DNA of 64,000 nt from Bacillota bacterium (GTDB lineage Bacteria; Bacillota; UBA4882; UBA10575): NCBI GenBank assembly GCA_012837715.1, contig DUQR01000039.1, forward strand, positions 62,001 to 126,000. The letters are read 5' to 3'. A model generated the notes under the pieces. The model was not told where the DNA came from, ran no database searches, and was given only the letters and a program-made list of their open reading frames with translations. A program made the translations under genes and the position numbers. Below, one piece after another: positions 11,789-52,613 of the stretch. Position 1 is the first letter of the stretch, and each line of letters starts with the position of its first letter.

Positions 11789-11817
11789 TTGCAGGGAGCA
11801 AGTTTATCTGCTATGAT
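11789..11817 (+). promoter_or_regulatory. Housekeeping-type promoter of the structured RNA
   Basis: TTGCAG, 17-bp spacer, TATGAT, preceded by TGC as an extended -10. The predicted start is near 11823, within the hairpin-rich stretch that ends in a terminator. Confidence 0.75.
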
Positions 11818-11822
11818 ATTAG

Positions 11823-12008
11823 TACAAACTCCTTGTGGATTCGTGTTCGCAAAGAGTTTGTAGAGCATCATTCTGATGTCAGGCGCCGGCTGAGGGGTGA
11901 AGCTCGCCCTGCCTCTGACCACGCCGGCAGTCGGGGTAGGTGATTTTCCTCGGTTAACTATTTAAGGTTGTTGTTCATTTGCCACCACCGGGTGGCGCTT
12001 TTTTTTTT
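11823..12008 (+). ncRNA. Independently transcribed structured RNA of about 185 nt, family unassigned
   Basis: There is no ORF here, but a strong promoter, three hairpins and a terminator are present. Hairpin 1 pairs ACAAACTC with GAGTTTGT, with further pairing of TTGTG and CGCAA inside. A small CATCA/TGATG hairpin follows. The third is long: GCCGGC arms enclose GAGG/CCTC and GGTGA/TCGCC. The 3' end is GCCACC-ACCG-GGTGGC followed by ten T. Length and isolation resemble 6S RNA, but I cannot draw the closed rod with central bubble with confidence. It does not match tmRNA, RNase P or SRP RNA motifs I know. Confidence 0.6.
11981..12008 (+). terminator. Intrinsic terminator of the structured RNA
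   Basis: GCCACCACCGGGTGGC plus GC and a run of ten T. Confidence 0.92.
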
Positions 12009-44518: not shown

Positions 44519-44539
44519 ATAATTTAATTATCGATTTGG

Positions 44540-44792
44540 AACAGGCAAAGAAAGGACGAGTAGTGCGGATCCGGGTTATAGAGAGTCCCCGGCGGGTGAA
44601 AAGGGGATAACTACGGCCGACATGAAGATCAGCCTGGAGCCCCCGGACCGAAAGGGCAGTAAGTTCGGGCGGATAGCCACCGTTAACGGCAAGAAGTGGG
44701 TCGGATTCCGATCAAGATCTGAGGCGATTGATCCGGCCAAATTGGGTGGTACCACGGTTTAAACCGTCCCTTTGCGGGCGGTTTTTTTGTTT
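44540..44792 (+). promoter_or_regulatory. T-box leader controlling ileS
   Basis: Leader RNA that senses uncharged tRNA. Visible parts are the stem I start AAAGGACGAGTAG, the AGAGAG...GGTGAAA region, TGAAGATCAGCCTGGAGC with ATC (Ile) as probable specifier codon, and the T-box GGGTGGTACCACGG that pairs with the tRNA 3' end. The terminator CCGTCC-CTTTGC-GGGCGG plus seven T follows at 44764-44788. Low Ile-tRNA charging would favour antitermination. Confidence 0.93.
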
Positions 44793-51121: not shown

Positions 51122-52507
51122 ATGACCAAAGCGTATGATGTGATTATTATCGGGGGCGGACCGGCTGGAATCTTTGCCGCCTTAGAACTGGTGGAACGGA
51201 CCGGAAAAGTATTGATTATTGAAAAAGGGAAGAGTCTGGCCGACCGGGGTTGCCCTTCAAAGCAACAACATATTCCCTGTGTAAAATGTAAACCCTGCTC
51301 CATTGTTTGTGGTTGGGGGGGCGCCGGGGCGTTCAGTGACGGGAAATTGACCCTCTCGACGGAAGTCGGCGGTTTTTTGGATGAATACATCTCCAAAGAG
51401 CGGCTCCATAAGATGATCCGGTATGTGGACGATCTTTATCTCCGCTTTGGGGCGCCCGGGGAAGTATACGGTGATGATGAGGAGAAAGTGGCCGCGATTG
51501 CGAAGAAAGCGGTCCTGGCCGACTTGCGGTTGATCCCTTCGCGGATCCGTCATTTAGGTTCCGGACGGACCCTGGAAGTTCTCCAAGCGATGAAAGAGTA
51601 TTTGGAGGAAAAAGGGGTCGAAGTGGCGCTGAACCATACCTGTGCCGAACTGCTCGTGGAAAACGGCGCCGCCGTCGGGGTCCGTTTAAAAGATGGCCAG
51701 GAGTACCGGGCGCAATATATTATTGTCGGCCCGGGGCGGGAAGGTTCCGAATGGCTGGTTGCGGAAGGCCGCCGGTTAGGACTGGAGACAACGGTCAACC
51801 CGGTGGACATCGGCGTCCGGGTGGAGCTCCCGGCGGAAGTGATGGAACCCTTGACTTCGGTGGTGTATGAAAGTAAGTTCATCTATTATTCCCGTTCTTT
51901 CGAAGATCGGGTCCGGACCTTTTGCATGTGCCCCTATGGGGAAGTAGTGGTGGAGAATAACGACGGACTGATGACGGTGAACGGCCATAGCCATGCCCAT
52001 AAGAAGACCGCCAACACCAACTTTGCCTTGCTGGTCAGTAAGAGTTTCACCGAGCCCTTTAAAGAACCCATTACCTATGGTCAATACGTGGCCGGTTTAG
52101 CGAACCTGCTGGGCGGAGGCGTCATGGTTCAACGCCTTGGCGACTTACAATTGGGACGGCGCTCCACGCCCGAACGGATGAAAAAGGGCTTGGTCGTGCC
52201 TACGCTCCGGGAAGCCACCCCGGGCGATTTAAGCCTGGTCCTGCCCTACCGGCACCTGTTGGCCATCATGGAGATGCTGGAGGCGCTGGATACGATTGCC
52301 CCGGGGGTTAACTCCCGGAACACTCTTCTTTACGGGGTTGAGGTGAAGTTCTACTCTTCCCGGCTCCACCTCAGCGCCGATCTGGAAACGGAAATACCGG
52401 GCCTCTTTGCCGTCGGGGACGGCGCCGGGGTGACCAGGGGATTGATGCAAGCCTCTATTTCTGGGGTAATTGTGGGTAAAGAGATCAAAAAACGGCTGGG
52501 CGCATAA
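51122..52507 (+). CDS. COG2509-type FAD-dependent dehydrogenase
   Basis: A 461-residue flavoprotein with N-terminal IIIGGGPAGIFAALELVERTG, followed by a cysteine-rich segment (RGCPSKQQHIPCVKCKPCSIVCGWGG, conserved in this group), and a C-terminal FAD contact GLFAVGDGAGVTRGLMQASISG. Substrate unknown in the family. The cysteine cluster could bind an iron-sulfur cluster, which is inference. It follows trkH by 24 bp and ends at a terminator whose stem overlaps the stop. Confidence 0.88.
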   Translation: MTKAYDVIIIGGGPAGIFAALELVERTGKVLIIEKGKSLADRGCPSKQQHIPCVKCKPCSIVCGWGGAGAFSDGKLTLSTEVGGFLDEYISKERLHKMIRYVDDLYLRFGAPGEVYGDDEEKVAAIAKKAVLADLRLIPSRIRHLGSGRTLEVLQAMKEYLEEKGVEVALNHTCAELLVENGAAVGVRLKDGQEYRAQYIIVGPGREGSEWLVAEGRRLGLETTVNPVDIGVRVELPAEVMEPLTSVVYESKFIYYSRSFEDRVRTFCMCPYGEVVVENNDGLMTVNGHSHAHKKTANTNFALLVSKSFTEPFKEPITYGQYVAGLANLLGGGVMVQRLGDLQLGRRSTPERMKKGLVVPTLREATPGDLSLVLPYRHLLAIMEMLEALDTIAPGVNSRNTLLYGVEVKFYSSRLHLSADLETEIPGLFAVGDGAGVTRGLMQASISGVIVGKEIKKRLGA

Positions 52508-52522
52508 CCCGGCCGTTTCTGT
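52491..52522 (+). terminator. Terminator overlapping the FAD dehydrogenase stop
   Basis: AACGGCTGGG-CGCATAA-CCCGGCCGTT followed by TCTGTT; the T run is weak. Confidence 0.6.
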
Positions 52523-52613
52523 TGGCGGATCCGGCATGGGCTGATCTTTGCGGTGAAAATATCGGCTGCCTTCGGCTTTGGGGAAGGAGGAACCCTGCGG
52601 CCAAAGGGTGTTT

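Follow-up and report, generated by a model that had tools for sequence, protein, structure and literature searches.

Does the stretch at positions 11789-12008 of the 64,000-nucleotide DNA segment analysed here (the window) encode a structured RNA, is that RNA a known one, and what might it do? The initial annotation had described an orphan RNA of about 185 nt with three hairpins, a promoter, a ten-T terminator and no open reading frame. It had offered 6S RNA as the best guess and a new small RNA as the other possibility, and had proposed a search against Rfam and a look for covariance in relatives. Taken together, the sequence comparisons below indicate that the locus is a real, free-standing gene for a small non-coding RNA.

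Organization of the RNA gene

The promoter sequence, TTGCAG followed after 17 nt by an extended -10, reads as had been claimed, and the features assigned to the locus are collected in Table 1. A simple sigma-70 scan left the segment 11789-11817 of the window unscored. The pattern TTGCA..17..T(C/T)TGnTAtnAT recurs ahead of relatives of both types, A and B (described below), and its -35/-10 arrangement precedes nearly all relatives. We therefore base the promoter call on this recurrence, which is better evidence than the sigma-70 scan; the promoter and both transcript ends are nevertheless predictions inferred from sequence. A GC-rich hairpin at 11980-11997 with ten T residues at 11999-12008 confirmed the terminator, and its CCACC/GGTGG stem is seen in most members of the family. 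The absence of a coding region was also borne out, since no open reading frame of at least 60 amino acids is present at 11789-12008 and the frames that span it are only 22-50 amino acids long. The same region in relatives carries compensatory changes and indels, a pattern fitting structure and not a reading frame.

The window RNA is predicted to fold with an energy of -68.4 kcal/mol, compared to a mean of -56.6 kcal/mol for shuffled sequences (z = -2.9). It contains four hairpins, namely P1, P2, P3 and the terminator, so that the size given earlier holds but the count of three hairpins does not. The linker between P3 and the terminator is rich in G and U, as are those of L016, L072, L208 and L210; in several relatives it contains repeats of GGTTTT or of units resembling GGTATCTC.

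Table 1. Features assigned to the RNA locus (positions in the window)
Feature	Positions	Strand	Description and basis
Predicted promoter	11789-11817	+	-35 TTGCAG (11789-11794), 17-nt spacer, extended -10 TGC-TATGAT (TATGAT 11812-11817)
Predicted transcript	11824 to ~12007	+	~183 nt; start inferred 6-7 nt past the -10, end within the T run
P1	11824-11861	+	5' hairpin ACAAACTC...GAGTTTGT; predicted fold; relatives keep the hairpin, sequence varies
P2	11863-11905	+	Imperfect hairpin with GAGC/GCTC closing, extended by covarying pairs; structure-free consensus fold, pair counts
P2 loop palindrome	11882-11887	+	GGCGCC; type B has GGGCCC, and three genera of the most distant family GACGTC
P3	11908-11940	+	Conserved bulged U at 11916; 10-nt loop CACGCCGGCA (11920-11929); pair counts
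P3 loop palindrome	11923-11928	+	GCCGGC; in 40/40 members
Linker	11941-11979	+	Variable, mostly unstructured; sequence and relatives
Intrinsic terminator	11980-12008	+	GCCACC..GGTGGC and ten T; terminator-like match, relatives

Comparison with catalogued RNAs

Scans with the Rfam library returned nothing at the gathering threshold for region 11789-12008 and only chance matches at E<=10, and thus no 6S, SRP or other family was placed at the locus. Whole-library scans also gave no match of the window RNA to the OLE, ROOL or GOLLD models. We excluded 6S RNA (RF00013) and bacterial SRP RNA (RF01854) as identities because neither model matches here, 6S not even at E<=10 and SRP nowhere in the window, and because the genuine genes lie elsewhere in the same genome: two for 6S, which exceed the gathering cut-off, and one for SRP RNA, at 199 bits. 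The window RNA resembles 6S RNA in size and in being a free-standing gene, but it lacks the long stem with a central bubble, and the initial guess was therefore abandoned.

6S RNA is present in 27 of the 29 genomes of the class. On four contigs a 6S gene lies about 7-9 kb from the RNA described here (G022:C62, G019:C76, G026:C183, G024:C418; distant family). Elsewhere in the window, the Rfam scan detected a good T-box leader at 44539-44774 (117.7 bits), and ARAGORN reported a tmRNA* at 52279-52598 with the odd tag VGKEIKKRLGA; the latter is probably a false positive, since the Rfam scan gave no tmRNA anywhere in the window.

Distribution of the family and covariation of its core

A DNA search of 61 genomes recovered the RNA in 17, its own included; all 16 other searched genomes of the order were positive and none beyond it. 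The search also exposed a paralogous copy at another locus of the window's genome (type B), and most genomes in the window's family have two copies, at unrelated loci. A covariance model of the P2-P3 core (R1) detected the RNA in 23 of the 29 class genomes; with a second model (R2) the number rose to 26. Among 399 genomes sampled from the phylum, only 2 weak matches were obtained outside the class. The outside-class matches L206 and L207, and a third match in G008 (L211), were rejected as GC-rich chance matches without the loops or the P2 hairpin. Weak matches in G017 (within an apparent mreC coding sequence) and G028 were put down to chance. The outside-class distribution rests on some 380 genomes sampled from the phylum, and most genomes are metagenome-assembled drafts. 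In a pattern scan of public genome contigs at least 117 stretches were found and, among the matches listed, those above 40 bits occurred only in this clade. A similar scan of viral contigs yielded six chance matches only, and no match to the RNA was seen in phages or plasmids. Member contigs are labelled Hydrogenispora sp., 'Bacillota bacterium' or UBA5486, which points to hosts that are Hydrogenispora-like Bacillota, known mainly as metagenome-assembled genomes. A literature search on non-coding RNA in Hydrogenispora or Limnochordia found nothing relevant. We conclude from these sequence searches that this is a new, previously uncatalogued RNA family, limited as far as sampled to one class of Hydrogenispora-like Bacillota. 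The description as an orphan fails on one point, given the type B paralogue in the same genome and a family that spans the class.

Covariation in these relatives, the second of the comparisons proposed at the outset, was measured over 22 core pairs in 37 sequences. Standard pairs occupied 93.7% of the cells and both sides had changed in 17 of the 22 pairs; double changes were found in 140 cells as against 45 in shuffles, and the covariation score was 0.49, compared to 0.22 for shuffles and at most 0.11 for controls in which the pairing partner was slid. Within P3 alone, 10 of 11 pairs showed changes on both sides, with 95.8% of cells paired. The alignment was fitted to model R1, and the pair counts consequently lean towards the R1 structure. 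This bias is limited because of three observations: RNAalifold, given an alignment without any structure, returned the same helices (double changes in 15 of 20 pairs); the slid controls scored low; and the P2-P3 cores of distant members, folded individually, were more stable than shuffles (z from -2.2 to -5.1). The window's own P2-P3 core folded alone was no better than shuffles (z = -0.87). Hairpin P1 and the terminator are found in most members with changing sequence. The structure is thus beyond chance, being conserved in 26 of 29 class genomes and covarying far more than the shuffled and slid controls, and the suggestion of a new small RNA is well founded, for an RNA that is free-standing, conserved, covarying and without an Rfam match.

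Within P2, a local hairpin GCnTC/GAnGC also covaries, with 96.8% of cells paired among type A and type B sequences of the window's family (alignment A2). It was rejected as a general structure, being missing in the distant family, and it possibly competes with the GAGC/GCTC helix, which would give two alternative folds in the window's family. A possible long-range helix between 11890-11896 on the 3' side of P2 (CTGAGG) and 11948-11954 in the linker (CCTCGG) can be drawn in some type A members but is not general; it forms part of the lowest-energy fold of the window RNA.

Two palindromic hairpin loops

The loops of P2 and P3 are the most conserved sequences of the family, and each carries a 6-nt palindrome (in P2, with one exception). 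The P3 loop is usually 10 nt, with three unpaired bases before GCCGGC and an A after it. As this loop is invariant, it gives no covariation. The P2 loop is self-complementary in 39 of 40 members, in which it reads GGCGCC, GGGCCC (type B, two genera), GACGUC (three genera of the distant family) or, in one member, GGUGCC, which is self-complementary through G-U pairs. The sole exception, the second copy in G018 (L064), has the non-palindromic loop GACGCC and counts against self-association. A random loop would contain a 6-nt palindrome with a chance of about 0.03 if 7 nt long and about 0.08 if 10 nt long.

Two kinds of paired substitution occur in the P2 loop: neighbouring bases change from CG to GC, and a G and C separated by two bases become A and U; 99.1% of cells are paired when the loop is matched to itself. 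Such changes cannot reflect pairing within the hairpin, because bases that are adjacent or have two others between them cannot form hairpin pairs in one chain. Self-complementarity is thus kept by covarying bases that cannot pair within one chain, as in RNAs with symmetric kissing loops. With the loop columns left out of the tree, the P2 loop can be explained by four changes, of which three keep the palindrome, but only two are independent compensated double changes. By our own count about 11% of random double substitutions would keep a palindrome, so that two of two has a chance of about 1%. An alternative for the GACGTC members is a local hairpin, GACG-CAGA-CGTC, which would explain one of the two double changes. 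The covariation of the P2 loop is therefore suggestive, and not strong, evidence for self-association.

No other conserved 6-nt partner for the P2 loop was found inside the RNA. Intramolecular pairing of the P2 and P3 loops (GGCG/CGCC) was considered and rejected, as it comprises only 3-4 bp and is lost in GACGTC members. As free six-mers, the palindromic duplexes of the family were computed at -7.2 to -12.5 kcal/mol. GCGCGC and GUGCAC, the six-mers known from the HIV-1 dimerisation initiation site (DIS), gave comparable stabilities in the same computation. Pairing of a type A with a type B P2 loop leaves a central mismatch (-6.4 kcal/mol).

Possible functions of the RNA

We put at about even the chance that this is a free-standing RNA of a new family whose copies pair through symmetric kissing loops at both P2 and P3. 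Pairing would be homotypic, P3 with P3 through GCCGGC and P2 with P2 through GGCGCC, GGGCCC or GACGUC. Because one molecule carries two self-complementary loops, the product could be an open chain or a dimer of two-fold symmetry held by two kisses. In the window's genus the mismatch between type A and type B would confine P2 contacts to one type, and P3 could still link the two. The assembled RNA would act as a scaffold or a protein-binding platform, although this role is a guess.

The conserved loops may instead be the site of an RNA-binding protein that recognises the invariant, GC-rich loops together with the U bulge of P3, the palindromes being incidental. The stems vary across the family, whereas hardly any change is seen in the P3 loop or at the bulged position, as is typical of protein sites, and protein binding and dimerisation are combined in OLE (PMC12286853). 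Two palindromic loops together are nevertheless unlikely by chance, and the P2 loop changes in sequence yet stays palindromic; we regard this explanation as unlikely, but one that deserves serious consideration. An antisense regulator acting in trans, whose P2 and P3 loops would seed pairing with mRNAs, appears improbable. Many bacterial regulatory RNAs are small, have their own promoter and terminator and expose conserved sequence in loops, and the size, signals and loops of this RNA fit that description. The exact complement of the P3-loop 10-mer, however, occurs at six other sites in the genome, a number close to the four of a reversed-pattern control; each of the six falls within an open frame, and none is clearly at a start site. 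With one exact 10-mer, this is a weak test.

The genes flanking the RNA bear on a further possibility. In the window's family, type A copies have the same upstream gene in 15 of 15 genomes, an amidohydrolase resembling an SAH/MTA deaminase, and the downstream gene varies. In most genomes type B precedes a PHP-domain gene, and in several relatives its opposite flank resembles the beginning of a ychF-like GTPase (named by eye). Most members of the most distant family follow a sigK-like sigma gene (also named by eye). An intrinsic terminator ahead of a same-strand gene could suggest a cis-acting leader, such as a riboswitch or attenuator, of the downstream gene. That gene, however, differs between loci and genera (examples are an HI0933-like oxidoreductase, nrdR and the PHP gene), and the paralogue occupies a locus unrelated to the first, so that a cis-regulatory role is unlikely and a leader of this kind highly so. 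A diverged 6S, SRP or other known housekeeping RNA, suggested by the size near 185 nt and the free-standing gene, can be dismissed almost entirely in view of the strongly scoring 6S and SRP genes elsewhere and the lack of any credible Rfam match at E<=10.

Relation to known self-associating RNAs

The HIV-1 DIS is a 6-nt GC-rich palindrome in a loop with unpaired flanking bases, and both loops described here resemble it in this respect. It lies in a viral genomic RNA and comprises one loop, whereas the present RNA is the product of a cellular gene and has two palindromic loops. Outside viruses, to our knowledge, there are few natural RNA-only homo-oligomers of demonstrated relevance, and very few small cellular examples. 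OLE, ROOL and GOLLD are large bacterial RNAs that form RNA-only homo-oligomers, and for L9.3 of OLE and L21a of GOLLD the argument for symmetric kissing loops drew on covariation between adjacent bases (PMC12286853). The RNA family described here is like them in that its stems covary strongly and adjacent bases in a palindromic loop covary while staying self-complementary. It differs in its size and simplicity, about 183 nt with three simple hairpins against 577 nt for OLE (PMC12286853), in having no Rfam match, in the small number of independent events, and in that an oligomer is here only proposed, from sequence. That a compact cellular RNA of about 183 nt self-assembles through two palindromic loops into a small RNA-only oligomer, with orthogonal P2 loops in its paralogues, is a tentative reading whose chances we would place somewhat short of even.

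Even without self-assembly, this is a family of RNA carried by almost all genomes of a class and missing from Rfam. If the copies do pair, a short RNA with two such loops, along with paralogues mismatched at P2, would be far easier to test biochemically than the large RNAs, and would suggest that self-assembly is commoner among small bacterial RNAs.
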